54,653 bases of DNA from a virus. Positions 7,155 through 53,271 of the stretch are shown here, piece by piece (the stretch's first letter is position 1; the number at the start of each line of letters is the position of its first letter). The position numbers and the translations under genes are program-made. Below the pieces are notes generated by a model, which made no database searches, was not told where the DNA came from, and was given only the letters and a program-made list of their open reading frames with translations. The stretch is from IMG/VR virus record IMGVR_UViG_3300021368_000936, positions 1 to 54,653 of that record; one strand, 5' to 3'.

Positions 7155-7161
7155 ATAAATA
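7155..7161 (+). promoter_or_regulatory. late promoter element ATAAATA before gp25
   Basis: GATAAATAG lies 19 bases before the gp25 ATG and directly after the previous stop. It probably drives the whole gp25-gp6-giant unit. Confidence 0.65.
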
Positions 7162-40100: not shown

Positions 40101-43100
40101 GGACTTCATTACAAACAACCTTGGTCCCTTCATCAACAAACCATATTCTACGAACCCAGTTCCTAGAGCACTGGTTGAACTTACTGACTCTGGTAAGATC
40201 TCCGAAGATCAGATTCCACCTCTACGTCCTTTCCAGGTCTTCACTGTTGCTGACCAGGCAGAAAGAGTTGCTATCGAAGGAGCACTTGCTGGTGACATCG
40301 CTATCCAACAGGATACATCAACGTCATTCATTCTAAACAATGATAACGATAGTTTGTTCGTATCGTTCCCAGTAGACACCACTCTACAATTTACTATCGG
40401 TGATGTCTTTACTGGCGATGTATCTGGTGGTAAGATTCAGGCAACTGAATACAGACAAGGTGTTGTATATCAGATTAACATCACTGATGGTGGTTCTGGT
40501 TACATCACACCTCCTGTTGTTACTGTATCTGGTGGTAATCCACAAGCAGGTGCTGTCACAGCAAATATCACAACCGAGATTGCTAACGGTCAGGTTGTTA
40601 TCATGAACATTGAGTTGTTCAATGGTTTCGTTGGTGGTAAAGGATACACTACACCACCTACCATCACTATTGCTGCTCCTGCTGGTTCTGGTACACAAGC
40701 AACCGCTAATGCTTTGATTGAAAGCAGACTCTATGGTGATATCGTTAACAACGTTAAGATTGTTGATACTGACACTATCGAATCTAGTGATCTCCCAGCA
40801 GAGACAATTAACATTACTAGAGTTATCAATACTTCTGCTTCTGATATCAACAACTGGGTATCTCTATCATCTAATCAGATCGCTGCTAGTGACATTACTT
40901 CTGGAACTATTTCAACTGCTCGTCTAGCAACTAACGCTGCTGGTTCGGAATCTGCTGCTAACTCCTTCACCTTCCTAAGAGGTGACCAAGCATATGCTCC
41001 TGCCGTACAAACAATCAAGGGTCCTGAGACTAGATACTTTGCTAAACTCAAGACTCAAGCAAACAGCGGCGCTTCTCAGCTGATCTTTGATTCTAACTCG
41101 AACTTTATTAAGGGTCATGAAGTTATACAAATTACTGGTATTCAGTCTGACACTAACATTGATGGTGTTCTAACTGAAGCAGGTGAGACCACTGTTACTC
41201 TAGACAAGTTCTTAACAGCAACTCTATCTGCTGGAACAGTTCTAGAATTCAACAGAGGATCTTCCCCACTAACCTTCGAATCTTCTCAGACTCAAGGTGA
41301 ATTCGTTGAACAGATTGTTATTCAGAATGGTGGTCAGGGCTTCGATGCTGGTCCATTCTTCAACGTTCCTCTCGCTGGTGGTAACGGAACAGGTCTGAGA
41401 GTTAACATCATCACAACTGGTGGTGTAGTTACCGACGTTACTATCGTCAATGGTGGCGAAGGATATGGTCAGAATACCAGTCAACAGAACGTTGACTTTA
41501 TCGTATCTTCCGCTCCTTCTGAGATTGGACCTGGAACGGGTCTAGTCCTACTAGCAAAAGTAACTACAGTTCTAAGACAGTATGCTAACGTTGCTGTTGA
41601 TATCAACAGAGTTACTGATCTAACTACATCTGGTGATGCCTACGGTACACTTGGTGTTGCTAGATTCCTCAAGCAACAGTTCTTGATTGGCGAAGCAGGT
41701 AACGGTTCTGTTGCTATCAACACTGGTCCTGACTCTGGTCTTGACGCTGACACCCTGGACGGTGCTCAAGGTTCGTTCTACCTGAACGCAGGTAACATGA
41801 ATGCTGGTACTTTGCCTGTTGATAGACTATCTGGTACGTACAACATTAACATTTCCAACCAGTCTGGTAGTACCCTCAGATTGAGAACTGCTACCAGCAC
41901 TCCAACAGGTAACCCAACACCAGACCAGTTTGCTGCTGGTATCATCGCTGATACCAAGAACAATAACGCCGACAACCTCTTTGACGGTGGCACCAGACAT
42001 ATGGTGATGACCCTAAGAAATGGTGGTACTGACTTTGACGCTACCTTCGGTGGTGTTAGACAACTCGCCTTCACCGATGGTACTGCCAGCAATGGTGGTA
42101 ACATGTGGATTCGTGGTTCGTTCAACAGTCCAGCAAACCAGTTTGGTGACTGGTATAAGATTTGGAGTTCTGGTAACCACGGTGAACTCAGCGGACTAGA
42201 CGCTGACAAGATGGATGGTCGCCAAGGTAAGTGGTATCAGACTGCCACTCACATTAACTACGGATACTTCAGTGACAACCGTCTACCAAAACTTCAAACT
42301 GAGAAGGACATCCTCAAGACATTCAGACTCCTTGATTGGACTGGTACTCCTAGATACAATGTTCTTGTTCGTGACGAGCTTCTTAACGCCGCTCCATTCC
42401 AAGTTGGTACACCAGTCAACTTGTATGACAATGGTGGTAACGGTGTAGGTGAAATCACCCTAACCAAGGTAACACCTGTACAAGACGTTAACGACGCTGC
42501 CAACAACTACACAATGTTGACTGGTAGTTTGACATCGGGTGATTTTACTGATGCCAACGGTAACCAGGACGCCTTCTTTATTGGTACTGGTGGTGTTGCC
42601 AACGCTTTTGCTTTCCAAGACTGGGGAGTTTCTCCAGTTGATCAAGATGCTGATGGTAGAGCAGATGGTACATTCGAAGTTGCTGAACTAATCAGTGACG
42701 GTGGTGCTGCTCAATTGAAACTAGGCAGAGTTGATGGTCAAGTATCCACTTCTCCATCGATCTACTTCAGATCTTCTCAGCAAGCATCTAGCACTTACAA
42801 CACAGCAATTATTGCTTCTGGTGGTTCTGGTGGTCAGGGTGATGGTGCCCTAGAACTCAAGGTTGGCACTGCCAACTCCTTGACTGTAAATGGCAACATC
42901 ATCTGGAATGCTGCTAACGTATCACCCACCGTACAAAACATTGGTTCTGTTTATACAGGAACCAATAGTTCTGACTTTGATCCTGCTAACCCAGAAGACA
43001 ACGTAACTCTAAGAAACGTTGTCATGAGAGATCTCAATGGCAACTTTACTGCTGGAACAATTACTGCTTCTTTGACTGGTGCTGCTTCGGACAACGTTCT

Positions 43101-44337
43101 GAAGGCAGGCGATACAATGACTGGGGCTCTAACCATCACCAACGTTGTTGCTGCTAACCAAGCACTGAGCGTATCTGGTAGAGCAGACTTCTTGAGCAAT
43201 ATCACAGTTTCTGAAGATCTAACAGTTGATACAAATACATTCCACGTAGATGCCACAGACAACTCAGTCTGTATTGGTACTACTTCTTCTGATTCTTCTC
43301 TCAAACTACTGATCACCGAGACTGGTGCTCAAGATGCCATCATGAGAATGTATGGTCAATCAGTTAGCGGTACTCAGTATGACCCAGTAATTCAAATGCT
43401 AGGTCAGGGTAATAATCCTACTGAAGAAGGTTTTGAACTAAGATATGATAATTCTACTGGTGAAGTATTCTTCAAGCAACTGTTTAGTGGTATTACTACC
43501 ACATCAGCATTTGTGTTCAGCACTGCTAACTTCAGCAATGCCCTAGAAATTACTGGTAACGGTAATTTGGGTATTCAGATGACGCCAGCTGATGCCTATG
43601 AACTGGATGTCAACGGTAACATTAGAACCGAGACATCATTGACTGTTGGTTATGCCAACGCCAACGCTGGTGCTACTATGGTATTCGGTGGTGCCACTGG
43701 TGCTGCTCTATCTACCCCAACTGCTGCTCAGTCTCAGATCTCTAACTTCAGAATTGGTAACCAACTATCTACCAGTGACGTATTTGAGATTACTGCTAAC
43801 GATGGAGCATCTGGTTCTCTAGTTTGGAAAGCGACTCCAGCACTTGCTGTTCAAGGTTCTTACAACAGAGTTGCTATTAACACTGATCAGTTTGGTGGAG
43901 TTGACCCTGAGGATAATACCCAGAGATATTACAGTCTGAATATCCAGGGTGACATGAATATCAACGGTCTTGTCTACCAGAACAACAGTGAGTTTGTTAC
44001 CTCACGTTGGACCGAGGCAGATAATGAAGCCGATATCTACAGAGACTCTAAAGTTTGGATCAACCCAGACATTAATGTCAATGGATTCACTGGAAACCCA
44101 ACATACGATCTACAAATCGGTGGTGGAACTGAAAATGGTGACCTAGGCATGACTGGCATCTTGTATGTCAACGATGCTGCTCAGTGGATTGATACCTTGG
44201 GTATCATTAAGACTAACCCAGACACGATTGCTGAAGATGTCACAATCCCAGCAAACACCAACGCCACCTCCGCTGGTCCAATCACCATTCCAAACGGCGT
44301 AACCATTGATGTTATTGGACAATGGTCCATCGTCTGA
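34159..44337 (+). CDS. giant tail-fibre-like protein (3392 aa)
   Basis: The longest gene of the window. Residues about 60-145 hold two GxGYT repeats. A parallel beta-helix-like segment begins near 309 (YVSQQIGSDLNDGRSAVNPV, then RTIKKACQLA), the pectate-lyase-like start found in many fibres. A helical unit (YQDACLQIKNNREFIADEVV at about 748) is split from its partner (KCRRDVKHFLNAL at 1304) by tandem repeats. A second intact unit lies at about 1435-1500. The last third is classic fibre: NATDSKLPTQKAVKDFI, DADTLDGAQGSFYLN, AGDTMTGALTI, and the C-terminal GPITIPNGVTIDVIGQWSIV. It probably forms a trimeric host-contact fibre. No enzymatic residues are assigned. Confidence 0.82.
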   Translation: MSFKFNSDREQLRAIAPSLIGDEVLSIRSGTGADEKEVLRTLLDPDTKLPRVGINRTGSRIDRYVITNQGSGYTQLPSVTVAAPPPGPNARQAFASASVSAEGRVTGLLIDDPGDGYTSAPAVSITGGNGAGADAEAFLDTVDFELDINGAIRTSTSIISDTARILNLDIDNLVTPDAQLRAPNLKTFINNTGTQWVADKFYQKDSFVVRGPNVYQALTTGYSSANPLDPPLHIDGIQTNGNSLDDLTRPGVSFKHIGFRVADENEVYYNETGEAGIYPRSITPLLGDKSDKIATTEYVLNLATNDVGGRIYVSQQIGSDLNDGRSAVNPVRTIKKACQLAWQTPGVKESIIISGGDYTEDNPISIPPDASIVGDNLRLVIIRPSNPRKHIFKFGDKNYVIGVTYRDQEGADTFTWDFAMVFDDKQRITYAADTNGDFGTSFPVGTQVFGEDAFRADFQDNGGLSSLVAGVEMRGVNGGVIESTRVEFDAITGASAYITGEFDYRNISGGITAGETLSYGGANTLRFAPNTAYTVGQIVWTSDHTYSVSAAGTSGETNPTHDAGAAGNGPDTLEFTYIRDTYTLVTTDVISIRPEGEVVFEDIPNPEAPALPIYRIDFSQQGQDAIATGGYQDPGTPEDLGGIIFYTNALQGADNIHDFKEGQEIFIEGLSTSAPDLSMLNGIQRIYKVIEDPDGRSRRFVIPKKLPLLTNDNYDPGQFAAVRSVAKSVTLSLLNSPFKFNQANPVARRYQDACLQIKNNREFIADEVVGRINDEFKKEYFSIYDIGGSAAQQFTPTNVTYDPATGISTFTVANHGLVAGDGVSIADNSLVFTCAMDGNKTEHSSPQSDYYSSGKALPVLSSGLTTNTFQLNVGVSGPDQQFTPSDAVYNPATGDLTINLNTTHGLDVGEGIVIDDNSLSFTCDMDNNQSTKTYPRPGIDPYAGRSINITAVPSDTEITVNVGASAANKYFTPSAADYNPVTGDMTVTVGQHGLGVGRSVVLADESFTFTCDQDNNQTQHQYPRPGVDPYAGQSIAITAVGTTSHTPTDAPYDAATGIVEFTIAGHGFTQGDYIKIADDSLDYTCVLDGNTVTKSYPRAGYDYPSGRWLEISNVTGDTFEVNIGPSSYTGAHTFVSADPNAIERQDGTFTINVGTSSNTTTHTFISATTNAIKHEPQSTHTFVGTTANSIKHLPQSAHTFVRSATNSLSVGGDEFKVYLGTSRFIHTYVSGGTITFGGSSYNVTNFVYDNFITGTATITIDTSIPGISEDNIVQLAGLIVECDIDGVTTQKTYPSFNIPVSDDKCRRDVKHFLNALTQDLEFGSNNNILDSAKKYIDGTNTEITFVENEMIQTVRAIEYARELAIFAMRKWRTGNGMAGDPIYTPQYSTLPRYFDDTIIDDGNNPACDNVRSAIDTLSYLFVDVLANNASGTYLDAAWLIARNRHHIADEAYNAAIVQFPNLALVNIDERKCRRDINFILSAVIRDLILGGNAGIVEAAESYFTGTQLTGVPQSELGATIYAFNEVRDLAIQAMRNWKDASGNNIGAALYTPIPRFTDSSILPDPNGNPLCANVESSITTAFAFLEDVLDGTILKGATTVETGTLFDTVGIYTYPSSVIRDAAGNYITVRSTYDDLPIIEASPYTQNASIISKLGGSGALIDGSKVKNPNCPFPGLELDGTASFPNQGKSMVASAFTIVSEGGTGYKIIEDGYVQLVSVFCIFTTDGILAESGGYASVTNSASNFGQFALRSTGFRREAYEFDVAQITNVSSTPTGRTILSVSGLGREPLEHYVAKIDGFENVNPDIEYFIDVVEGVTVGPPFSAQITLESGSGGPAEFKNISTGNVIALSALVGETVRLHRPSIVNSSSHTWEYAGSGTSYLALPENGGVKIEANEQVSENYGRTYVSGTDELGDFKVGTFARIENRTGNITFTGTVTISEVEFLKLKGGDVVVTGFDNSNTLGGANATDSKLPTQKAVKDFITNNLGPFINKPYSTNPVPRALVELTDSGKISEDQIPPLRPFQVFTVADQAERVAIEGALAGDIAIQQDTSTSFILNNDNDSLFVSFPVDTTLQFTIGDVFTGDVSGGKIQATEYRQGVVYQINITDGGSGYITPPVVTVSGGNPQAGAVTANITTEIANGQVVIMNIELFNGFVGGKGYTTPPTITIAAPAGSGTQATANALIESRLYGDIVNNVKIVDTDTIESSDLPAETINITRVINTSASDINNWVSLSSNQIAASDITSGTISTARLATNAAGSESAANSFTFLRGDQAYAPAVQTIKGPETRYFAKLKTQANSGASQLIFDSNSNFIKGHEVIQITGIQSDTNIDGVLTEAGETTVTLDKFLTATLSAGTVLEFNRGSSPLTFESSQTQGEFVEQIVIQNGGQGFDAGPFFNVPLAGGNGTGLRVNIITTGGVVTDVTIVNGGEGYGQNTSQQNVDFIVSSAPSEIGPGTGLVLLAKVTTVLRQYANVAVDINRVTDLTTSGDAYGTLGVARFLKQQFLIGEAGNGSVAINTGPDSGLDADTLDGAQGSFYLNAGNMNAGTLPVDRLSGTYNINISNQSGSTLRLRTATSTPTGNPTPDQFAAGIIADTKNNNADNLFDGGTRHMVMTLRNGGTDFDATFGGVRQLAFTDGTASNGGNMWIRGSFNSPANQFGDWYKIWSSGNHGELSGLDADKMDGRQGKWYQTATHINYGYFSDNRLPKLQTEKDILKTFRLLDWTGTPRYNVLVRDELLNAAPFQVGTPVNLYDNGGNGVGEITLTKVTPVQDVNDAANNYTMLTGSLTSGDFTDANGNQDAFFIGTGGVANAFAFQDWGVSPVDQDADGRADGTFEVAELISDGGAAQLKLGRVDGQVSTSPSIYFRSSQQASSTYNTAIIASGGSGGQGDGALELKVGTANSLTVNGNIIWNAANVSPTVQNIGSVYTGTNSSDFDPANPEDNVTLRNVVMRDLNGNFTAGTITASLTGAASDNVLKAGDTMTGALTITNVVAANQALSVSGRADFLSNITVSEDLTVDTNTFHVDATDNSVCIGTTSSDSSLKLLITETGAQDAIMRMYGQSVSGTQYDPVIQMLGQGNNPTEEGFELRYDNSTGEVFFKQLFSGITTTSAFVFSTANFSNALEITGNGNLGIQMTPADAYELDVNGNIRTETSLTVGYANANAGATMVFGGATGAALSTPTAAQSQISNFRIGNQLSTSDVFEITANDGASGSLVWKATPALAVQGSYNRVAINTDQFGGVDPEDNTQRYYSLNIQGDMNINGLVYQNNSEFVTSRWTEADNEADIYRDSKVWINPDINVNGFTGNPTYDLQIGGGTENGDLGMTGILYVNDAAQWIDTLGIIKTNPDTIAEDVTIPANTNATSAGPITIPNGVTIDVIGQWSIV
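36532..37590 (+). repeat. tandem protein repeats of about 80-100 residues in the giant fibre gene
   Basis: Four units (about 36532, 36792, 37057 and 37288) share FTPS...YNPATGD, a GL..G..V.I.D.SL.FTC.MD.N core and YPRPG.DPYAG. A degenerate fifth lies near 37900-38050. Between the fourth and fifth, an 18-residue THTF...N.IKH.PQS motif repeats three times (about 37636-37790). Confidence 0.75.
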
Positions 44338-44347
44338 TAAATAAATA
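44337..44347 (+). promoter_or_regulatory. double late promoter element ATAAATAAATA
   Basis: Two overlapping ATAAATA copies (44337 and 44341) lie at the stop of the giant fibre gene, about 32-42 bases before the glycine-rich gene. Confidence 0.6.
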
Positions 44348-44378: not shown

Positions 44379-45434
44379 ATGTCAACTCTTAATGTAGGGA
44401 CTATCACGCTGTCTTCAGGATTGACGCTCCCAACCTATACTTCAAACCCTGATAACAGACCAGGACACTCTGCTGGTAGAACCATTTTTGATACCGTCAC
44501 AAACACTATTCAAGTGTCAGATGGCAGTCAATGGATTTCTGCTGGTGCTAGTGGTAGTGGTTTGATTTCTGCTACAGGTGGTGAGATTACATTCTCTGGA
44601 TCGTATAAAGTACACACTTTTACTCAAGTAGGACAATATAACTTCGCTGTTTCTAGTGCCGCTGGCGGTGCTACTGCTGAAGTTCTTGTCGTTGCTGGTG
44701 GTGGTGCTGGTGGCACCATTGGTGGTGGCGGTGGTGGAGGCGGTGTTTGCCACCACTCGGCATATCCTATCTCTGCTGGTTCATATCAAGTTACTGTTGG
44801 TGCTGGTGCTATTTGTCCTCTAGCTGGTTATCCTTCACCCAAGGGCGTTCAAGCAGGTCCTAGTAAGTTCGGATCTCACGAAGCATATGGTGGTGGTCCT
44901 GGTGGATCTTGGAGTGGTCAAACTAATGAGTATGGCACCGATGGTGGTTCGGGTGGTGGCGGAACTGGTCCTGGTCCTGATGCTTTCGGTGGAAGTGCTA
45001 CTCAAGGCATTGCTCCTGGTGGTGGACAAGTTTATGGAAACCCTGGTTACAATGGTGGCAACAAAACTAGTGGCACACACTCTGGAACCCACACAGGTGG
45101 CGGTGGCGGTGGAGCTAACCCCAACAACACTCGTAACGGAAGAGTCGGTGGTGATGGTGTAAACATTATGGGATATGTCGTCGGTGGCGGCGGCGGTGGC
45201 GGTTCCCACGAAAACTATGCTAACTCTCCTATTTCTACACCTGCTGCTCCTGGTGGTGGCGGTCGTGGCGCTGGAAGAGCTTCCCAGTTTGCTGGTGGTG
45301 GTGGTCTAGGGTTCGGTGAGCCTGGTGTCACAAACACTGGTGGCGGCGGCGGAGGCGGCTGGTATAATGGAGGTGGCACTGGACAAGGTGGTGCTGGCGC
45401 TCCTGGTATCGTCGTTGTCAGACACTCCGTATGA
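44379..45434 (+). CDS. glycine-rich adhesin-like tail protein, copy 1 (351 aa)
   Basis: An N-terminal segment of about 55 residues (MSTLNVGTITLSSGLTLPTY, ending near DGSQWISAG) is shared with the protein at 49368 and probably anchors it to the fibre. After a short linker the protein becomes extremely Gly-rich from about residue 105 (VLVVAGGGAGG) to the C-terminus, with GGGGGGGG runs alternating with short variable, aromatic or His-containing loops. This resembles polyglycine-helix adhesins such as T-even gp38, where loops between Gly runs define receptor specificity; the analogy is inference. The C-terminus PGIVVVRHSV closes the domain as in other Gly-rich phage proteins. Confidence 0.75.
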   Translation: MSTLNVGTITLSSGLTLPTYTSNPDNRPGHSAGRTIFDTVTNTIQVSDGSQWISAGASGSGLISATGGEITFSGSYKVHTFTQVGQYNFAVSSAAGGATAEVLVVAGGGAGGTIGGGGGGGGVCHHSAYPISAGSYQVTVGAGAICPLAGYPSPKGVQAGPSKFGSHEAYGGGPGGSWSGQTNEYGTDGGSGGGGTGPGPDAFGGSATQGIAPGGGQVYGNPGYNGGNKTSGTHSGTHTGGGGGGANPNNTRNGRVGGDGVNIMGYVVGGGGGGGSHENYANSPISTPAAPGGGGRGAGRASQFAGGGGLGFGEPGVTNTGGGGGGGWYNGGGTGQGGAGAPGIVVVRHSV

Positions 45435-45442
45435 GGTAATTA

Positions 45443-45940
45443 ATGCTTTATGATGTAATTGAAAATTTTCTCGAAGAAGAAGATTTTAGTGAACTTGTAA
45501 AACAAACTTTAAATAACCCATATTTCCCATTGTTTCTGAAGCAGCGTGTTGCTGCTTCCTGGACGGACGATGGGATTTATTTTACCCATTGCTTTTGGCA
45601 GGGAGATCGGATAAGTAGTGATTTCTTTCAACCGATTGAGCCTGTAATCAAAAAGTTAGACGCTGAAAAACTTATAAGAATTCAGTTTAATCTATACCCA
45701 CCGACCGCTGAAACAGTAAGGCACGACTGGCATATTGATCAACCAGACGATCACAAGGGTTGTATTTTGTATCTAAATACTAATGACGGACAAACGTTGT
45801 TGAGAGAATCCGAAACCAGTGCTATAGGTATTAACTCTATTGCTAACCGAGCACTGTTCTTCAATCCAGCAAAACCTCACTGTAGTACAACTTGTACTGA
45901 TCAAAAATTTAGATCTAATATTATCTTCAACTATGAGTGA
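45443..45940 (+). CDS. putative Fe(II)/2-oxoglutarate oxygenase
   Basis: The 165-residue product has the minimal double-stranded beta-helix signature: HDWHID (H97-x-D99), followed by a GCILYLNTNDGQTLL strand pair, and then NPAKPHCSTTCTDQKFRSNI with the distal His146 and an Arg157 that would bind 2-oxoglutarate. Such enzymes hydroxylate proteins or small molecules; the substrate here is unknown. It follows the first glycine-rich gene by eight bases and is coupled to the next gene by overlap. Short length suggests just the catalytic core. Confidence 0.72.
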   Translation: MLYDVIENFLEEEDFSELVKQTLNNPYFPLFLKQRVAASWTDDGIYFTHCFWQGDRISSDFFQPIEPVIKKLDAEKLIRIQFNLYPPTAETVRHDWHIDQPDDHKGCILYLNTNDGQTLLRESETSAIGINSIANRALFFNPAKPHCSTTCTDQKFRSNIIFNYE

Positions 45941-46601
45941 ACTACATAATGTGTTTTCCATACCTGTGTGGAAAACAAAAATTACTGAATCTGATTACAA
46001 CAAAAAATTAATTCTCAACGAAATGCTGGACAACTTTAAAGTTGATCCAAAGAGAAACACTTGGGATAAGGTGATGCCCACTACTATGAAAAGTGTGTGG
46101 CATCATTCTAATAATGATGAAGATGATAAAAGATTCACAAATATCAGTTACGAAGAGTCTGGACTTACTAAAGTAATAGATTCTAGAATTAGAGAATTCT
46201 TTTCTCATTGTAGATTCATATCTGATGTAAACTACTTCTTCCAGATTACAAACTACACTGTATCTACAGAGGGTTATTTCTTGACTAGTCATGGGCACGG
46301 ACAGGACTCATTTAGTTCTGTGTTGTTCTTACAATATGATAAGTTCAATCATCCATCGACGTATTTTAATAATCCATATTCAGCAGCAGATCAAACACGC
46401 TGGTTACAAAAAGATCTGTATGATTCTATTGATCACAGCGATCCATTCTTTAGTTACTTCCAAGATGTATGGTCTATTGAAACTGAAGAAGATGACTACA
46501 TGATCTTTCCTGGTCATGTCAAACATGAAGTTCCTACTGTAGGAAAATCAGACAAAGAACGTGTTACTATTTCCTGTAATATTAAAGTGTACAAATCATG
46601 A
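45933..46601 (+). CDS. putative 2OG-Fe(II) oxygenase, PF13759-like
   Basis: The ATG at 45933 overlaps the previous stop and was preferred to an upstream in-frame ATG lying inside the preceding gene. Of 222 residues, the key blocks are YFLTSHGHGQDSFSSVLFLQ (H120, H122, D125), IFPGHVKHEVPTVG (distal H198) and ERVTISCNIKV (R210). The HxH...SS/SG...FP.H..H layout matches the PF13759 family of putative oxygenases, common in marine phages. Substrate unknown. It ends in an ATGA overlap with the halogenase gene. Confidence 0.72.
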   Translation: MSELHNVFSIPVWKTKITESDYNKKLILNEMLDNFKVDPKRNTWDKVMPTTMKSVWHHSNNDEDDKRFTNISYEESGLTKVIDSRIREFFSHCRFISDVNYFFQITNYTVSTEGYFLTSHGHGQDSFSSVLFLQYDKFNHPSTYFNNPYSAADQTRWLQKDLYDSIDHSDPFFSYFQDVWSIETEEDDYMIFPGHVKHEVPTVGKSDKERVTISCNIKVYKS

Positions 46602-48157
46602 GCAAGATCATTAACGAGATAACTGTTGTCGGCGGTGGTAGTGCTGGGTGGATGACTGCTTCAACTCTTGCTAGGTTTTTTCCTAACAGAAAAATTACAG
46701 TTATTGAGAGTCCTGATATACCTATTGTCGGTGTAGGAGAAAGCACCTTAGGTCAAATCAATCATTGGTTGTATGCTTTGGGAATCAATGATGATGATTT
46801 CATGAAAGAATGTGATGCTTCGTATAAGTTGAGCATCAAATTTACAAACTTTTATAAGAAGGATGATGGTGGATTCCATTATCCTTTTGGTGCTCCATTT
46901 ATGAAGGACACTGAACTGGGGTATAACGACTGGGGTCTTGTAAAACTATTGTATCCAGCAGTCCCTAATATTGATTTTGCTCGGTGTTACAATCCTGCCA
47001 CTACTCTGGCAGAAAACAACAAAATCTCTATGAACACCAGAGGTGAGTTTGACAATTTCAATTTCAAGAAAGATACTGCTTATCACTTTGATGCCGTAAA
47101 GTTTGGTCAGTGGTTGAAGAATAATTATTGCCTTCCTAGAGGTGTAGTTCTAATCAACAAAAATGTTGAGAATGTAATTACAAATGATGATGGTATTGAG
47201 AAGTTGATTCTTGATGATGGTTCAGAACATACATCAGATCTATTTGTAGATTGTACAGGATTCAAGAGTCTTCTCTTACAGCAAGCAATGGATGAGGAGT
47301 TCATTTCTTATGAAGACATTCTGCCGAACAACAAAGCATGGGCAACTAAACTTCCATACACAAATAAGGACGAACAACTAGAACCATTCACAAACTCAAC
47401 TGCTCTATCTAATGGATGGGTTTGGAATATTCCTCTTTGGAGTAGGATTGGTACGGGATATGTTTATAGTGATAAGTTTACAACCAAGGAAGATGCCCTA
47501 GAGGAATTCAAGCAATACCTCGGTAGAGACGATTTAGATTTCAAAGAAATCTCTATGAGGATTGGTATCCATAAGAGAACCTGGGTAAAGAATGTAGTTG
47601 CTATTGGTCTGTCAGCAGGGTTTATTGAACCACTAGAAAGTAATGGTCTATTTACTGTCCATGAATTCTTACTTAAACTAGTCAAGTCTCTGTCCAAAGA
47701 ATCAATCAATCAGTTTGATAGAGACACATACAATCTGGTCACCAGAGATATGTTTGATGTCTTTGCTACCTTTGTATCTCTCCACTACAAATTGAGTGCC
47801 AGAGATGACACAGAATACTGGAGGTATGTTACAGAGAAGAGTGTGGAGAGAGAAGAGATCAATCGTATTCCTCAACTACAATCAGACTTCAGGAATCTTG
47901 CTCAAGCAAAGATGTACAACGAAGAGTTTGTATTGAATAGTGGTACACCTTATATTGCTATGGGCATGAACTATAGTATAATTAATGACCAGACTCTACT
48001 ATCATGGGAGTATTATCAAAATAAAAATTACAAAGAGATTGCTGACAGAGCGTACACTATGTTTAACAAACGAAAGTATTTGTGGCAACAGGCAGCATAC
48101 ATCTGCCCAACATTGAACCAATTTTTGGAAAATAAATATAACAGTGAGGTCGTTTAA
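46598..48157 (+). CDS. flavin-dependent tryptophan halogenase-like enzyme
   Basis: The 519 residues carry the family's hallmarks: the FAD-binding VVGGGSAGW near the N-terminus, GVGESTLGQINHWL, the lysine in ECDASYKLSIKF (K77, equivalent to PrnA K79), WVWNIP (WxWxIP, residues 274-279) and EPLESNGLF with E347 equivalent to PrnA E346. All catalytic residues known for PrnA/RebH are therefore present, and the length is typical. The enzyme uses reduced FAD, oxygen and halide to halogenate an aromatic substrate. Cyanophage Syn10 VirX1 is a characterised viral relative that favours iodide, and this gene is a candidate homologue. No flavin reductase is seen in the window, so host FADH2 would be needed. 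It is coupled to oxygenase genes on both sides. Confidence 0.9.
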   Translation: MSKIINEITVVGGGSAGWMTASTLARFFPNRKITVIESPDIPIVGVGESTLGQINHWLYALGINDDDFMKECDASYKLSIKFTNFYKKDDGGFHYPFGAPFMKDTELGYNDWGLVKLLYPAVPNIDFARCYNPATTLAENNKISMNTRGEFDNFNFKKDTAYHFDAVKFGQWLKNNYCLPRGVVLINKNVENVITNDDGIEKLILDDGSEHTSDLFVDCTGFKSLLLQQAMDEEFISYEDILPNNKAWATKLPYTNKDEQLEPFTNSTALSNGWVWNIPLWSRIGTGYVYSDKFTTKEDALEEFKQYLGRDDLDFKEISMRIGIHKRTWVKNVVAIGLSAGFIEPLESNGLFTVHEFLLKLVKSLSKESINQFDRDTYNLVTRDMFDVFATFVSLHYKLSARDDTEYWRYVTEKSVEREEINRIPQLQSDFRNLAQAKMYNEEFVLNSGTPYIAMGMNYSIINDQTLLSWEYYQNKNYKEIADRAYTMFNKRKYLWQQAAYICPTLNQFLENKYNSEVV

Positions 48158-48159
48158 TC

Positions 48160-48762
48160 ATGGCATATGAAGCTATCTGGTATCACACCAGAATTCCCGA
48201 TAAAGTAATTGATCTGTTGACAGAAGACTTAGAGCAAGCAACTGAAGACACTCAGTTTTCGGAGTCGATGACTAAATCAGGTTCTGACTTTAAGATGAGA
48301 GACAGTTCCAATCTATGGGTTCCAGAAACTCATTGGGTATGTGGAATGCTTTGGCACTACATCCAGTTGGCAAATAGAAATAACTTTAGATATGATATTG
48401 ATGGGTTTGATAATGGATCTATTCAATACACTAGATATCAAGAAGGTAATTACTACAACTGGCATAAAGATGATGGTGTGTCAAATGCTTACACTCCTGT
48501 AGATGATCCTGAAGAAGACTTCATCAAAGGTAGTACACAAAAAATCAGGAAACTTTCTGTTACTGTTCAACTATCTTCTCACGAAGATTATACTGGAGGT
48601 GAAGTTCAGTTTCTGGAAAACAACAATAAAACTTTCTTTGCTCCGAAGAAGAAAGGAACTGTGATTGTATTTGACAGTCGTCTTCCACACCGAGCAAAAA
48701 AAGTGTTGACTGGAGAAAGACGTTCTCTAGTTGGTTGGGTTGTTGGTCCTCAGTGGAGATGA
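48160..48762 (+). CDS. PKHD/prolyl-hydroxylase-type 2OG-Fe(II) oxygenase
   Basis: A full-length hydroxylase of 200 residues. Key blocks: YQEGNYYNWHKDDG (H102-x-D104), IRKLSVTVQLSSHEDYTGGE, and GTVIVFDSRLPHRAKKVLTG with distal H177 and 2OG-binding R187/R188 before SLVGWVVGP. This is the prolyl-4-hydroxylase/PKHD pattern, common in T4-like cyanophages. The substrate may be a prolyl residue, or another one, in a virion or host protein; unproven. It begins two bases after the halogenase stop. Confidence 0.85.
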   Translation: MAYEAIWYHTRIPDKVIDLLTEDLEQATEDTQFSESMTKSGSDFKMRDSSNLWVPETHWVCGMLWHYIQLANRNNFRYDIDGFDNGSIQYTRYQEGNYYNWHKDDGVSNAYTPVDDPEEDFIKGSTQKIRKLSVTVQLSSHEDYTGGEVQFLENNNKTFFAPKKKGTVIVFDSRLPHRAKKVLTGERRSLVGWVVGPQWR

Positions 48763-48763
48763 T

Positions 48764-49336
48764 ATGAGAAAGTGGGATGACTGGTCTGTCATTCTAGTGC
48801 CCAATATGATAGACCCAATGTTTCTTTTCCAACCTATTCCTTGGGAAAGAGGGCAGTATACATATCATTATCCTGGACATGTTGTCATGGATAAAGATGA
48901 GAGGCAAGTCCCTGGTAGTATTTCTAGATACAACCACCCTCACTACCATGATATTTACTATCAAGTAAAAAAGAGAGTGGAACAATCTATCAATGAAGTT
49001 TTATATCCAACCTATTATTATGATAGGTTTTACTTCAAGAACCAGGAATTAGTTCCTCATAAAGATAGACCATCTTGTGAAGTTAGTGTTTCTCTACACT
49101 GTTCTAATAATCTAGATTATGGTTGGCCTATCTGGTTCGACACACCAGATGGAGATAAGATTCCTCTAGTTACGAATCCTGGTGATGCTGTCATATATAA
49201 AGGATGTGAGCGTGAACATTGGCGTGAACCAATGAAAGGTGATCATAAATCCTACTACCACCAAATCTTCTTCCATTATGTAAGAAGAGATGGACCGCAC
49301 ATTGAACATGCTTTCGACGCTCCTAATCGAAGATAA
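48764..49336 (+). CDS. 2OG-Fe(II)-oxygenase-like protein
   Basis: ATG 48764 follows GGAG by five bases. The 190 residues include QELVPHKDRPSCEVSVSLHC (H99-x-D101), then WPIWFDTPDGDKIPL and GDAVIYKGCEREHWREP with a distal His152. The C-terminal YYHQIFFHYV completes the beta helix. The HxD...H arrangement and LVTNPGDAVIYKG resemble phage oxygenases; an Arg for 2-oxoglutarate is less clear than in the neighbours. Last gene before the second glycine-rich protein. Confidence 0.65.
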   Translation: MRKWDDWSVILVPNMIDPMFLFQPIPWERGQYTYHYPGHVVMDKDERQVPGSISRYNHPHYHDIYYQVKKRVEQSINEVLYPTYYYDRFYFKNQELVPHKDRPSCEVSVSLHCSNNLDYGWPIWFDTPDGDKIPLVTNPGDAVIYKGCEREHWREPMKGDHKSYYHQIFFHYVRRDGPHIEHAFDAPNRR

Positions 49337-49339
49337 ATA
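49333..49339 (+). promoter_or_regulatory. late promoter element ATAAATA before the second glycine-rich gene
   Basis: GATAAATAC overlaps the previous stop and lies 35 bases before the ATG. Confidence 0.6.
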
Positions 49340-49367
49340 CTTAAGAGACTAATACCGCCAGATAAAG

Positions 49368-50564
49368 ATGTCGAATTTAAATGTAGGTGAAGCTGTTGTA
49401 GGATCGGAGTTAAATCTACCGATCCATACAAACGGGTCTAGACCAGTTGCTCCCCCTGACGGTCATATGATCTTTAATCAGGAAGAGGGAAAAATTCAAG
49501 TTTATGATGGTGCCAACTGGTTGTCAATTGGTTCCACTAATTATGCTATGACTGCTAGTGGTCAGGTCACTACAACTGACTTGACTGGAGCAAATGCTGG
49601 TGACAGAGTTATCAAGTTTACTGGTAACGGTACATTGAATGTAACTGAGTCTTCTCCTGATAAAGGTGTTGATCTATTGATCATCGGCGGTGGCGGTGGC
49701 GGTGGTGGTGTTATCGGCGGTGGTGGCGGCGCTGGTGGCACTTTGTATAAGAGAAATGTTGTTCTACCTGCAGGTACTTACTCGATTACTATTGGTAGTG
49801 GCGGCATTGGTGGTAAAGGATGGAACCAACCAGACCAAGAAGGAAGAGCAGGAAACCCAACTACATTTATTGGTGGAGACATTATCTACGAAGCAGTAGG
49901 TGGTGGTGGCGGCGAAGCTCATGGTGGTTCTTCTAACCCTGGTTTTGCTGGTGCTGGTGGTTGTGGCGGTGGATCTGCTAACAGATCTAGACGTGGTGGT
50001 TCTGCTGTAGGCAATGCTTTCGGTTACATCGAAACTCTACAAACTCCACCTAGAGCTCCTACCAGTGATGCCTATGCTTCTGGTGCTGGTGTCCTAGGAA
50101 CTCACACGGGAAACACTGGTGGTAACGCTAGAGGTATTGTCAGAAGAGGTATCCAAGGTTGGCCTGGTGGAAACTGGGGTGGTGGTGACACAGGTGCTGG
50201 TGGTGGCGGTTGTGGTTACTGTGGTATCAACGGTGGAGCACCTAGAGACGTTGGTGGTCCTGGCGGATCTGGTTGCTACATGGAAATTGAAGGAACTCTA
50301 CAAGCATATGCTGGTGGTGGAGGCGGCGGTGTTCGTGGAACAGGTCGCCCTAGATCCACTGGTGGTGCTGGTGGAGGTGGTAAAGGAGGTAGAAATAGTT
50401 TGCTTCCTGGACCATATGGTTCGAACGTCGGTGAAGGTGCTGAAAATGGTCAGGCAAACACTGGCGGCGGTGGTGGCGGCGGTGGTTACAATGGTGGTAA
50501 CTCAAACATCATTGGTGCTACTGGTGGTCCTGGCGTAGTAATCGTCAGATATAGATACGTATAA
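49368..50564 (+). CDS. glycine-rich adhesin-like tail protein, copy 2 (398 aa)
   Basis: Paralogue of the gene at 44379: MSNLNVGEAVVGSELNLPIH aligns with its N-terminus, and IQVYDGANWLSIG with IQVSDGSQWISAG. The Gly-rich part starts near residue 104 (LLIIGGGGGGGGVIGGGGGA) and holds many GGGGG runs with loops containing Trp, Tyr, Cys and Arg. The C-terminus PGVVIVRYRYV matches copy 1 (PGIVVVRHSV). The loops differ strongly between copies, as expected for receptor-binding tips under diversifying selection. Confidence 0.75.
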   Translation: MSNLNVGEAVVGSELNLPIHTNGSRPVAPPDGHMIFNQEEGKIQVYDGANWLSIGSTNYAMTASGQVTTTDLTGANAGDRVIKFTGNGTLNVTESSPDKGVDLLIIGGGGGGGGVIGGGGGAGGTLYKRNVVLPAGTYSITIGSGGIGGKGWNQPDQEGRAGNPTTFIGGDIIYEAVGGGGGEAHGGSSNPGFAGAGGCGGGSANRSRRGGSAVGNAFGYIETLQTPPRAPTSDAYASGAGVLGTHTGNTGGNARGIVRRGIQGWPGGNWGGGDTGAGGGGCGYCGINGGAPRDVGGPGGSGCYMEIEGTLQAYAGGGGGGVRGTGRPRSTGGAGGGGKGGRNSLLPGPYGSNVGEGAENGQANTGGGGGGGGYNGGNSNIIGATGGPGVVIVRYRYV

Positions 50565-50580
50565 TTAAGGAGTTTTTAAA

Positions 50581-50895
50581 ATGGATTTGACTTACGCTGC
50601 TTCTTTGACAAGTGATCAAAAGCAAGCAATCATTGATCTACTGAATCACATTACTGATGAAGAACCCTTCGGTCCTGGAGTCAGTTCCGATTGGGTAAAA
50701 GAAATGAGAGAAGTTCTACGATTGTCTACACCCAAAGATGCAGACATTCAGCAATGTAGAATGCTTCAACTCATCAACAGATCTGACAGTGGTGTTGGGT
50801 ATACTATCGATGACCTGACTTCACCAGAAGGTCTTCCTGTTGTTAGACTAGTAGGAACTACAGCACAACTCGACAAGTTGCTTGATAGTAAGTAA
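50581..50895 (+). CDS. hypothetical protein (104 aa)
   Basis: AAGGAG precedes the ATG by seven bases. The helical N-terminus (SLTSDQKQAIIDLLNHITDE) is followed by a mixed domain ending VVRLVGTTAQLDKLLDSK. It lies between the glycine-rich adhesin and an oxygenase, with its stop overlapping the next start as TAATG. No family is recognised. A chaperone or modification partner of the adhesin is possible only by position. Confidence 0.5.
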   Translation: MDLTYAASLTSDQKQAIIDLLNHITDEEPFGPGVSSDWVKEMREVLRLSTPKDADIQQCRMLQLINRSDSGVGYTIDDLTSPEGLPVVRLVGTTAQLDKLLDSK

Positions 50896-51503
50896 TGCAA
50901 TTTGACATTTTGCCATTGTTCTCAAGTCCTCTTACACTAACTAAATTAAATCAAGATACTGATTCAATCTTAGAACAACTGAAAGAGACTGAGTATATTG
51001 ATACTTTAGATTCTACAAATCAACAAACAAATATTCAATCCAAGATATCTAAATCTAAAAACATTCTAGAATCTTTTCCTGCCTTACAAAAGGAAATTGT
51101 AGAACACTTATCTTCTTACATAAAAGATGTAATGAGATATGAGGATTTAGATTTCAAGATTACTAGTTCGTGGTCAACACTGACTCCACCAGGACATAGT
51201 GGAGAATCACACTGTCATAAAAATAGTTGGTTAAGTGGAGTTTTCTATCCTCAAGACGGTAGTAATATACTATTCTCAGATGGATATCAATTCTTCTATC
51301 ACGAACCATCAGAATATAATCTATGGAACTCATCTAAGTGGGCAATACCAGCAGAGAAAAATCTACTGATCTTTTTCCCAAGTCATTTGAACCATCAGAT
51401 TACTAGTAACACATCATCAAACAACCGTCATTCTATTGCTTTCAACGTGTTCCCACGTGGAGTATGGGGTGAAGGAGATTCAATAAATAGTACCGTATCG
51501 TAA
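50895..51503 (+). CDS. putative 2OG-Fe(II) oxygenase, PF13759-like
   Basis: The 202 residues follow the PF13759 pattern closely: SSWSTLTPPGHSGESHCHKN with H106, H108 and N110, the SWLSGVFYPQ strand, NLLIFFPSHLNHQITSN with distal H167, and RHSIAFNVFP with R178. The same layout is found in the gene at 45933, so the island has two members of this family. The substrate is unknown. It is coupled to the previous gene, and a late promoter element lies near its 3' end. Confidence 0.8.
   Translation: MQFDILPLFSSPLTLTKLNQDTDSILEQLKETEYIDTLDSTNQQTNIQSKISKSKNILESFPALQKEIVEHLSSYIKDVMRYEDLDFKITSSWSTLTPPGHSGESHCHKNSWLSGVFYPQDGSNILFSDGYQFFYHEPSEYNLWNSSKWAIPAEKNLLIFFPSHLNHQITSNTSSNNRHSIAFNVFPRGVWGEGDSINSTVS
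51483..51489 (+). promoter_or_regulatory. late promoter element ATAAATA near the end of an oxygenase gene
   Basis: AATAAATAG lies 36 bases before the ATG at 51519, inside the coding end of the previous gene. Confidence 0.45.
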
Positions 51504-51518
51504 TTATTACTGATTATC

Positions 51519-51707
51519 ATGGACACAGCAGAACTCAGAAAGAATTTTGAAGAGCAACTTGCTAGCACCGACAAGCAAATTGCCGAACTAGAAGCGAACC
51601 TTGCTAAAGCAAGAGAGTATAAACTGAAACTAGCAGGTGGTCTAGAGACATTAGATCTTCTCAACCCACCCGAAGAAACTCCTGCTGAAGAACCAGCAGC
51701 AGAATGA
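51519..51707 (+). CDS. small coiled-coil protein (62 aa)
   Basis: The first 40 residues form a heptad-like charged helix (AELRKNFEEQLASTDKQIAE, then LEANLAKAREYKLKLAGG), and the end is acidic and Pro/Ala-rich (PPEETPAEEPAAE). Short coiled-coil proteins of this type occur next to cyanophage tail genes, with unknown function. It shares an ATGA overlap with the DUF6445-like gene. Confidence 0.6.
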   Translation: MDTAELRKNFEEQLASTDKQIAELEANLAKAREYKLKLAGGLETLDLLNPPEETPAEEPAAE

Positions 51708-52402
51708 TAGATGCTAAAGAGTTTGATATCGACCTCTCTTCTTGGGAGGTCGATATTCTTCATGTTGGGCGGTGTCAAAACAGATTAATTAAAATTAAAA
51801 ACTTTTTTTCTAACCCAGACAAAGTTAGAGAGACTGCTTTAAATGCAGATCTTAAAAATACTATCATGGGAGAAGTCTCTTCTGTTCCTGGGTATGTGTC
51901 TAGGATAGGTGGAATTGATATGAAATTCTTTTCCCCATTTAGAGACATTATATATGATAAGATGAAGACTACTAATTTAGTTTTACACAATCCAAAGTCT
52001 TCTATGTTTACATTTCAAAAATACAAACCAGGAGAATTGTGTAGAACTTCTAGTTTGTATCCACACGTAGATTGGCAACACTATGCTTGTGTTTTATCAC
52101 TGAATACAAATGAAGAGCTAGAGGGCACTGAGAGTGGGACTGCTTTTTGTAGACACGTTCCTACTAACATGGAACATATATGTTCTGATGTAAACTATCG
52201 CTATGATCGAGTATCTAATAGAGATCAAACAATGGTTCCTCTAGATCCATCTACTTTTGATAGATGTGGTTGGTTAACCTATCACATAGAACCACATGAA
52301 TACAATACTTTACTAATGTATGAAGGTAAAGTATGTCACACACCATACTTCAATACTAACTGGAACTGTGATCGTATTACCTTCAATGGGTTTCTAAAAT
52401 AA
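51704..52402 (+). CDS. DUF6445-like putative Fe(II)/2OG-type protein
   Basis: The 232 residues match my recollection of DUF6445: an N-terminal LIKIKNFFSNPDKVRETALN segment, YPHVDWQHYACVLSLN (H121-x-D123), GTAFCRHVP, and EGKVCHTPYFNTNWNCDRIT with distal H212 and R224. The HxD...H...R spacing is that of 2-oxoglutarate oxygenases. In bacteria I recall DUF6445 genes being found near tryptophan-halogenase-like genes, which agrees with this island. Activity and substrate are unproven. It is the last island gene before gp13. Confidence 0.65.
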   Translation: MIDAKEFDIDLSSWEVDILHVGRCQNRLIKIKNFFSNPDKVRETALNADLKNTIMGEVSSVPGYVSRIGGIDMKFFSPFRDIIYDKMKTTNLVLHNPKSSMFTFQKYKPGELCRTSSLYPHVDWQHYACVLSLNTNEELEGTESGTAFCRHVPTNMEHICSDVNYRYDRVSNRDQTMVPLDPSTFDRCGWLTYHIEPHEYNTLLMYEGKVCHTPYFNTNWNCDRITFNGFLK

Positions 52403-52440: not shown

Positions 52441-53271
52441 ATGGCATCGCCAAGCACTAGGCAGGAACTAATTGATTACTGTAAACGTCAGTTGGGTGCT
52501 CCTGTATTACAAATCAATATTGCTGATGAGCAAACTAGTGACATCATTGACGATGCCATTCAGTTCTACCATGAACATCATTTTGATGGACTTGAGCAAA
52601 TGTATCTCAAGCATAACATCACTGATAGTGATATTTCTAGGTTCACTACACAGAATGAAGTTACACAGACTTCTGGTACAGACGCCACTGGTTGGGAACA
52701 CAGAAAGAACTTCCTAGAGATCCCCGATCATGTGATGGGTATCAGTAAAGTATTTGGTGTGTCATCAAACTTCGTTCGTAACGAACTGTTTGGTATGACT
52801 AACCAGTTCTTCCTGATGGATATGTTCTCCTTCTCGAATGGATTCAAGATGGGGAACTTTGACTTGACCAACTTCTATATGGTCAAACAGTATTTTGAAA
52901 CTCTAGATCAAGTTATTAACACTGGTTCTTTCGTACAGTACAGATTCACCAAGAGGCAGGACAGACTGTACATTGATATTGATACAAGCAGACTAGTGGA
53001 AGGTAACTGGATCTTAATTGATTGCTGGGGTGCTATTGATCCAGATACTTACACCCAAGTATATAATGATTCATTTGTTAAAAGGTATGCTACTGCCCTG
53101 ATGAAGCGACAGTGGGGAGCAAACCTCATCAAGTTTAATAATGTACAACTTCCTGGTGGCATCACTCTCAACGGTCGTCAGATCTGGGAGGATGGAAACA
53201 GAGAAGTTCAGCAACTTGAGTCAGAAATGCTGACCAAGTATTCCCTTCCACCTATGGATATGATCGGATAA
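52441..53271 (+). CDS. 13: neck protein gp13
   Basis: gp13 with gp14 forms the neck joining head and tail and closes the packaged head. The product (276 aa; T4 309) begins RQELIDYCKRQLGAPVLQIN and contains the gp13-like segments IIDDAIQFYHEHHFDGLEQM, NFLEIPDHVMGISKVFGVSS and SFVKRYATALMKRQWGANLI. The last, a helix followed by KFNNVQLPGG, is especially diagnostic in cyanophages. A late promoter lies just upstream; gp14 begins one base after the stop. Confidence 0.92.
   Translation: MASPSTRQELIDYCKRQLGAPVLQINIADEQTSDIIDDAIQFYHEHHFDGLEQMYLKHNITDSDISRFTTQNEVTQTSGTDATGWEHRKNFLEIPDHVMGISKVFGVSSNFVRNELFGMTNQFFLMDMFSFSNGFKMGNFDLTNFYMVKQYFETLDQVINTGSFVQYRFTKRQDRLYIDIDTSRLVEGNWILIDCWGAIDPDTYTQVYNDSFVKRYATALMKRQWGANLIKFNNVQLPGGITLNGRQIWEDGNREVQQLESEMLTKYSLPPMDMIG

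Follow-up and report, generated by a model that had tools for sequence, protein, structure and literature searches.

Why would a phage place six putative Fe(II)/2-oxoglutarate-dependent (2OG) oxygenase genes and a flavin-dependent halogenase gene between the genes for its tail fibers and those for its neck? The question is raised by the window analyzed here, a stretch of 54,653 bases from a T4-like cyanophage (IMG/VR record IMGVR_UViG_3300021368_000936), in which the baseplate genes gp25, gp6, and gp8 are followed by large fiber genes and then by gp13 and gp14. An island of 11 genes, all on the plus strand, lies between a 10-kb fiber gene (positions 34159 to 44337) and gp13 (starting at 52441). 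In order, it comprises glycine-rich gene 1, ox1, ox2, the halogenase gene, ox3, ox4, glycine-rich gene 2, a small gene, ox5, a 62-amino-acid (aa) gene, and ox6. An earlier note on this sequence had proposed that the enzymes hydroxylate and halogenate virion adhesins, or else a host surface target, late in infection. On balance, and with moderate confidence, we favor reading the island as a cassette, expressed late in infection, that would modify the phage's receptor-binding proteins post-translationally and in which the halogenase would be optional.

Linkage of the enzymes to glycine-rich adhesin genes

The enzymes are strongly linked to adhesin genes. A neighborhood survey, set beforehand in the earlier note as the test of its proposal, showed strong linkage among these families and between them and the adhesins. 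For this survey, an open reading frame (ORF) was counted as glycine-rich if Gly made up 28% or more of some 120-aa segment. Relatives of ox4 were sought with the single ox4 protein as the query, the family alignment being too diverse for scanning; 267 were retrieved from IMG/VR and 1 from a genome collection covering 84,980 species, the latter on a 5.8-kb contig that carries a glycine-rich gene too. After 80 of the 267 IMG/VR relatives were kept, 80 loci were scanned, namely, 79 new IMG/VR loci and the 5.8-kb contig. A glycine-rich gene was present in 74 of these 80 loci, in every locus of at least 12 kb (57/57) or at least 16 kb (39/39), and in 25 of 26 loci once the set was dereplicated at 70% identity, against a glycine-rich background of ~18% of genome positions. 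A further oxygenase was found in 79 of the 80 loci. For 73 of 81 ox4 genes, the immediately preceding gene belonged to the ox3 family, and the two mostly overlapped. Control loci around the baseplate gene gp6, which were on average shorter, contained no glycine-rich gene, ox4, or halogenase (0/80), and the same was true of controls of at least 12 kb (0/33). With a halogenase as the query, loci with full flanks contained oxygenases in 15 of 15 cases and a glycine-rich gene in 14 of 15; because several of the halogenase-query and ox4 loci are near-identical, the effective number is smaller. A halogenase was present in 13 of the 80 ox4 loci. Most loci with the ox3-ox4 pair have none, and the halogenase can no longer be regarded as a core component.

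The linkage was also gauged in 16 complete genomes, in which ORFs were called, oxygenases and halogenases were retrieved with iterated profiles, and glycine-rich ORFs were identified by composition. In these genomes, 92 of 230 oxygenases lay within 10 kb of a glycine-rich gene, compared with 42.2 ± 10.0 under rotation, a value reached in 0 of 5,000 rotations. Nine of 20 halogenases lay within 5 kb of such a gene (2.0 expected under rotation; p = 0.0004). The 16 genomes are mutually related, and the rotation counts are therefore not independent trials; individual genomes were mostly nonsignificant alone.

Predicted late transcription of the island

The motif [AC]TAAATA, known as the T4-type late promoter, occurs 17 times in the window, always on the plus strand. 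Twelve copies (at 7155, 19112, 19118, 21049, 29290, 34114, 44337, 44341, 48132, 49333, 51483, and 52409) lie 15 to 70 nucleotides (nt) upstream of a gene start, at ten starts in all. Copy number alone is not above chance in the window; what stands out is strand and position (binomial P of ~1e-19, assuming uniform placement on both strands). Two overlapping copies (ATAAATA; 44337 to 44347, +) precede glycine-rich gene 1, a late-promoter-like copy (48132 to 48138, +) lies 28 nt upstream of ox3 in the terminal part of the halogenase coding sequence, and further copies precede glycine-rich gene 2 (49333 to 49339, +) and gp13 (52409). The gaps among glycine-rich gene 1, ox1, ox2, and the halogenase gene contain no copy, and the four genes are most simply read as sharing one late transcript.

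The spacing of the genes is tight. From glycine-rich gene 1 through ox1, ox2, the halogenase gene, and ox3 to ox4, the junctions are, in order, an 8-nt gap, an 8-nt overlap, a 4-nt overlap, a 2-nt gap, and a 1-nt gap; 31 nt separate ox4 from glycine-rich gene 2, and start-stop junctions precede ox5 (TAATG, before 50895) and ox6 (ATGA, before 51704). Simple scans for sigma-70 promoters gave nothing beyond chance. The strand and placement of [AC]TAAATA support the earlier note's suggestion that the enzymes are transcribed late and together with an adhesin.

The oxygenases and the ox4 family

An ORF check found the seven enzyme ORFs (six oxygenases and the halogenase) intact where they had first been placed, and their description as motif-bearing, coupled genes between adhesin and neck genes was borne out by ORFs, Pfam, profiles, and fold. 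All six oxygenases carry the HxD/E...H metal triad followed by Arg or Lys, with ox2 and ox5 having the HxH variant, and the pattern H-x-[DEH]...H...[RK] recurs in 581 of 592 collected oxygenase ORFs, the ox4 family included. The motif reads HID...H...R in ox1 (45443 to 45940, +; phrog_274), HGHG...H...R in ox2 (45933 to 46601, +; PF13759, E = 2.9e-7; phrog_81), and HKD...H...R in ox3 (48160 to 48762, +; PF13640), which is the first half of the ox3-ox4 pair. No Pfam match was obtained for ox1 or for ox4 (48764 to 49336, +; phrog_2954). Iterated profiles seeded with the proteins starting at 45443, 45933, 48160, 50895, and 51704 converged on one common superfamily; the membership of ox6 comes through this convergence, in which profile drift is possible, and DUF6445, the Pfam family that it matches, carries no functional description. 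By motif combined with profile or fold, all six genes of the window are assigned to the 2OG-Fe(II) oxygenase superfamily.

For ox4, the assignment comes from conserved residues and predicted structure. The family alignment has four invariant residues (H99, D101, H152, and R154), and a structure model, for which the alignment was built from the window and IMG/VR sequences only, reached a predicted local distance difference test score (pLDDT) of 92 and a predicted template modeling score (pTM) of 0.88. The top fold matches of this model are prolyl-4-hydroxylases (P4Hs), the first being the Pseudomonas putida P4H in complex with its protein partner, EF-Tu. Further 2OG enzymes follow, including the viral collagen prolyl hydroxylase vCPH, and AlkB proteins also appear, ranked below the P4Hs. 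When the ox4 profile was compared pairwise with those of the other oxygenases, probabilities stayed low (maximum, 26%), and the assignment rests on the fold instead. Judged by this model and by its distribution, ox4 represents a nearly virus-restricted oxygenase family with a predicted P4H-like fold.

Existing labels for these proteins differ from the assignments given here. "DNA endonuclease V" (DenV), the label of phrog_274, was rejected for ox1, which has no Pfam match and whose profile merges with those of 2OG oxygenases. "Ferrochelatase," the label of phrog_2954, was rejected for ox4, as 0 of 27 members match Pfam and the fold matches are 2OG oxygenases. Both labels look wrong because the ox1 profiles merge with oxygenases and the ox4 fold and residues are of the 2OG type. 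Together with "minor coat protein" (phrog_1644), they sit on proteins resembling 2OG oxygenases, and "DNA endonuclease V" and "ferrochelatase" have been propagated into many phage records.

The halogenase

The protein encoded at 46598 to 48157 (+) is a predicted flavin-dependent halogenase (PF04820, E = 8.8e-109) whose closest solved relative is VirX1 (PDB entry 6qgm, 5e-114; residues 5 to 453 aligned). In alignments with halogenases of solved structure, its segments GGGSAGWMT, GWVWNIP, syKlsikf, and EPLESnGlf show the GxGxxG flavin adenine dinucleotide motif, the GWxWxIP motif, and the predicted catalytic Lys and Glu. Alignments to Trp halogenases end near query residues 414 to 419, presumably before the lid that binds free tryptophan, an end point that is suggestive only. 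VirX1, the flavin-dependent halogenase of cyanophage Syn10, was reportedly studied with small aromatic substrates; in the near relative Syn9, an island of this type surrounds the halogenases.

A second halogenase class lies away from the island in Syn1 (165.6 kb), S-PM2 (121.3 kb), P-SSM2 (175.2 kb), Sf-CH11 (170.0 kb), and S-RIM44 (172.2 kb); the enzymes of the first three are ~28 to 30% identical to the window halogenase. Given this second class outside the island, cyanophage halogenases probably serve at least two roles.

Glycine-rich proteins as candidate substrates

The island follows a tail-fiber-like structural gene (34159 to 44337, +; 3,392 aa by ORF call) that is homologous to the gene annotated "structural protein" or "tail fiber protein" at the corresponding position of S-RIM44, Syn1, and Sf-CH11. 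Behind this gene lie glycine-rich gene 1 (44379 to 45434, +; 351 aa; PF21722, E = 1.4e-5; phrog_2295) and glycine-rich gene 2 (49368 to 50564, +; 398 aa; PF21722, E = 1.6e-14; phrog_863, labeled "tail fiber assembly," 2e-9). Each product contains 30% Gly and scores above the PF21722 cutoff, and both are probably of the kind known as receptor-binding fiber tips (gp38/gp24 type). Gly-rich fiber-tip domains in gp24 of myocyanophage Pam3 and gp38 of S16, T2, and PP01, with GGGGxGG stems that end in variable loops, bind receptors via those loops (PMC9608196, PMC12892980). The window genes resemble them in being Gly-rich and in lying beside a fiber gene, and one of the two has the fiber-assembly match; unlike for the window, no modifying enzymes are reported for those phages in the parts of the accounts consulted, and the window proteins are without a confident fold prediction.

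If these tips are the substrate, the core of the system would be a glycine-rich fiber-tip gene followed by the two coupled 2OG-Fe(II) oxygenases ox3 and ox4, with additional oxygenases and between one and four halogenases of the VirX1 type as optional extras. The enzymes would be produced alongside the adhesin late in infection and, before or during assembly, would hydroxylate side chains of the glycine-rich tip, and halogenate them where a halogenase exists, probably in exposed loops. Receptor binding or stability might thereby be tuned, and differing enzyme sets would yield chemically differing tips. An oxygenase pair that is made late, has one P4H-like member, and is tied to tip genes is most simply read as a tip hydroxylase pair, and the recurrence of related packages in hundreds of other phage sequences suggests a chemical decoration of the tip proteins by which these phages hold on to their hosts. 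We infer the adhesin as the substrate, the modified residues, and the benefit. More tentatively still, and with somewhat less confidence than we attach to the cassette itself, many aquatic phages may possess a dedicated system for hydroxylating, and in some lineages halogenating, glycine-rich tips, with ox4 and ox3 as its core and a varying enzyme set that would extend adhesin chemistry past the 20 amino acids.

Several observations weigh against this interpretation. Gene neighborhood does not prove an enzyme-substrate relation, and many oxygenases sit elsewhere in the genomes. The lone halogenases of Syn1, S-PM2, P-SSM2, and S-B64 are not near glycine-rich genes. P-SSM2 (NC_006883) is without the oxygenase/glycine-rich linkage and provides a counterexample: between 18.9 and 36 kb, it has several collagen-like genes whose products are rich in Gly and Pro (Pro reaching 23%), and almost no oxygenase lies within 10 kb of them. 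The AlphaFold2 model of the glycine-rich gene 2 product is poor (pLDDT, 55), so its loops are not placeable and no substrate site can be named, and no PDB sequence match was found for either glycine-rich gene of the window. Nor are the adhesins rich in aromatic residues, as the earlier note had argued. In the window proteins, Trp (0.9 to 1.0%) and Tyr (3.5 to 3.7%) are not unusual, and glycine-rich proteins near halogenases are not enriched either (Trp, 1.13% versus 1.30%; Tyr, 4.1% versus 3.35%), so this argument falls. What stands of that proposal is the linkage, the late expression, and the tip-type adhesin; aromatic enrichment and a core halogenase do not. Glycine-rich proteins near halogenases and those near oxygenases only, two phylogenetically unbalanced sets, contain 2.0% versus 1.0% His and 2.4% versus 4.6% Asp.

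Occurrence in other phages

The arrangement recurs in isolates. Synechococcus phage Sf-CH11 has, in order, a fiber gene, a glycine-rich gene, two oxygenases, a halogenase (66% identical to that of the window), an oxygenase, a "ferrochelatase," a glycine-rich gene, two small genes, and gp13; relative to the window, ox5 and ox6 are missing. In S-RSM4, the order is fiber gene, glycine-rich gene, approximately nine oxygenases, glycine-rich gene, and gp13, with no halogenase. Glycine-rich genes followed by runs of oxygenases occur right behind the fiber genes, at another genome position, in S-SM1, Syn9, S-CREM1, S-WAM1, and P-TIM40, and all of these islands except that of S-SM1 include at least one halogenase. 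In the Pelagibacter phages HTVC008M and Mosig, the island is located before gp13. The oxygenase island of Mosig (L436, 10828 to 12064) also contains annotated heme oxygenase and phycocyanobilin:ferredoxin oxidoreductase genes; its host is not a cyanobacterium. In one group of IMG/VR loci (L260 to L265, ~1 to 17 kb), four halogenases in a row accompany approximately nine oxygenases and three glycine-rich genes on the opposite strand, and one of these contigs is 270 kb long. Only 4 of 22 large contigs yielded a T4-like capsid gene; because the contigs are fragments, in which absence is uninformative, we do not argue that the island extends beyond T4-like phages.

Two S-RIM44 isolates differ between the fiber gene and gp13. 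Np_42_0711 carries three glycine-rich genes and two halogenases there, along with ox4 and other oxygenases, and Np_05_0604 carries one oxygenase, with glycine-rich gene, halogenase, and ox4 all absent. Adhesin and enzymes are thus gained or lost together. Such exchange of a variable island as a unit would also be expected if the enzymes modified the host surface (e.g., a receptor, against superinfection) and merely shared a hypervariable adhesin locus without acting on the adhesin, and hypervariable hot spots are already known in such genomes (PMC3037559). We nonetheless regard this hitchhiking as unlikely: the ox3-ox4 pair stays with a glycine-rich gene across divergent contigs despite changing neighbors, and late rather than early expression suits virion assembly better.

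Relation to known systems and earlier proposals

A second competing explanation, that the island makes a halogenated small molecule or a sugar decoration, follows the proposal of Iyer et al. (2021) for the jumbo cyanophage S-SSM6a, in which a halogenated metabolite or polysaccharide decoration was suggested (PMC7824862). The S-SSM6a cluster resembles the island in combining a halogenase with 2OG and cupin enzymes; unlike the window, it also contains carbamoyl-, methyl-, and sugar-modifying genes and was read as secondary metabolism (PMC7824862). In S-SSM7, a close relative, the halogenase and 2OG enzymes likewise stand next to genes for a carbamoyltransferase and a nucleotidyltransferase and to sugar genes. 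The islands of the window and Sf-CH11, in contrast, consist of oxygenases, a halogenase, glycine-rich genes, and two small unassigned genes, with no gene for scaffold making or for carbamoyl or sugar transfer, which makes this explanation improbable for them.

Halogenases and 2OG oxygenases of cyanophages have repeatedly been reported, and the explanations offered for them include 2OG/nitrogen control or DNA repair (PMC3037559), antibiotic protection (PMC2984593, PMC9964418), and reprogramming of host metabolism (PMC9602691). On the strength of these proposals and of the AlkB matches of ox4, one might hold that the oxygenases tune host 2-oxoglutarate/nitrogen signaling or repair DNA while the halogenase makes a protective chlorotryptophan, but this is very improbable, as it predicts earlier expression and no fiber-tip linkage, the observed linkage is extreme, and the nearest characterized relative of the halogenase is VirX1, not PrnA.

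Modification of fiber tips, the reading we prefer, has partial parallels. vCPH of PBCV-1 (PDB entry 5c5t) is a virus-encoded 2OG protein hydroxylase, and mimivirus has collagens and collagen-modifying enzymes in common with humans (PMC9546862). Both differ from the island in involving eukaryotic viruses and collagen repeats, with no halogenase and no tail fiber tip. SrpI, a flavin-dependent brominase of ribosomally synthesized and post-translationally modified peptides (RiPPs), brominates Trp inside ribosomal peptides and proteins; its substrates are proteusin precursors with leader sequences, from RiPP clusters, rather than virion proteins. A 2026 structural survey describes EGLN3-like prolyl hydroxylases as widespread in marine phages and, in the parts consulted, draws no link to fibers (PMC12774648); protein modification is one of the candidate functions named in the S-CREM1 paper. 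Our search, which covered mainly non-subscription papers and thus is no proof of priority, found no published link of these enzymes to receptor-binding proteins. The enzyme families themselves are known. What appear to be undescribed are the phage-wide module, the nearly virus-restricted ox4 family, and the fixed pairing of ox4 with ox3 and a glycine-rich tip gene.

For ~15 years, cyanophage 2OG oxygenases and halogenases have been classed as host-metabolism genes without a demonstrated role, and a tight link to adhesins could explain an entire category of genes that now pass as auxiliary metabolic genes. If the proposed modification occurs, phage adhesin diversity would have a chemical layer invisible in sequence alone, with relevance to host range, coevolution, and the search for protein-halogenating biocatalysts, and the widely copied "ferrochelatase" and "DNA endonuclease V" labels would be corrected.

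Accessory genes of the island

Downstream of glycine-rich gene 2, a small gene without an assigned function (50581 to 50895, +) has a similar-sized counterpart at the same place in Sf-CH11. The accessory oxygenase gene ox5 (50895 to 51503, +; PF13759, E = 5.9e-14) has no annotated counterpart at the Sf-CH11 site. It is followed by a 62-aa gene (51519 to 51707, +) that matches phrog_580, a usual neighbor of gp13, and by the second accessory gene, ox6 (51704 to 52402, +), a 2OG-type protein with HVD...H...R that matches DUF6445 (PF20043) and bears the PHROG label "minor coat protein." The right border is the neck protein gene gp13 (head-tail adaptor Ad2; 52441 to 53271, +; phrog_211). Inside the first codons of ox6, at 51725 to 51757, lies a perfect 14-pair hairpin (GATATCGACCTCTC...GGGAGGTCGATATT), which could terminate the unit before it or control translation.

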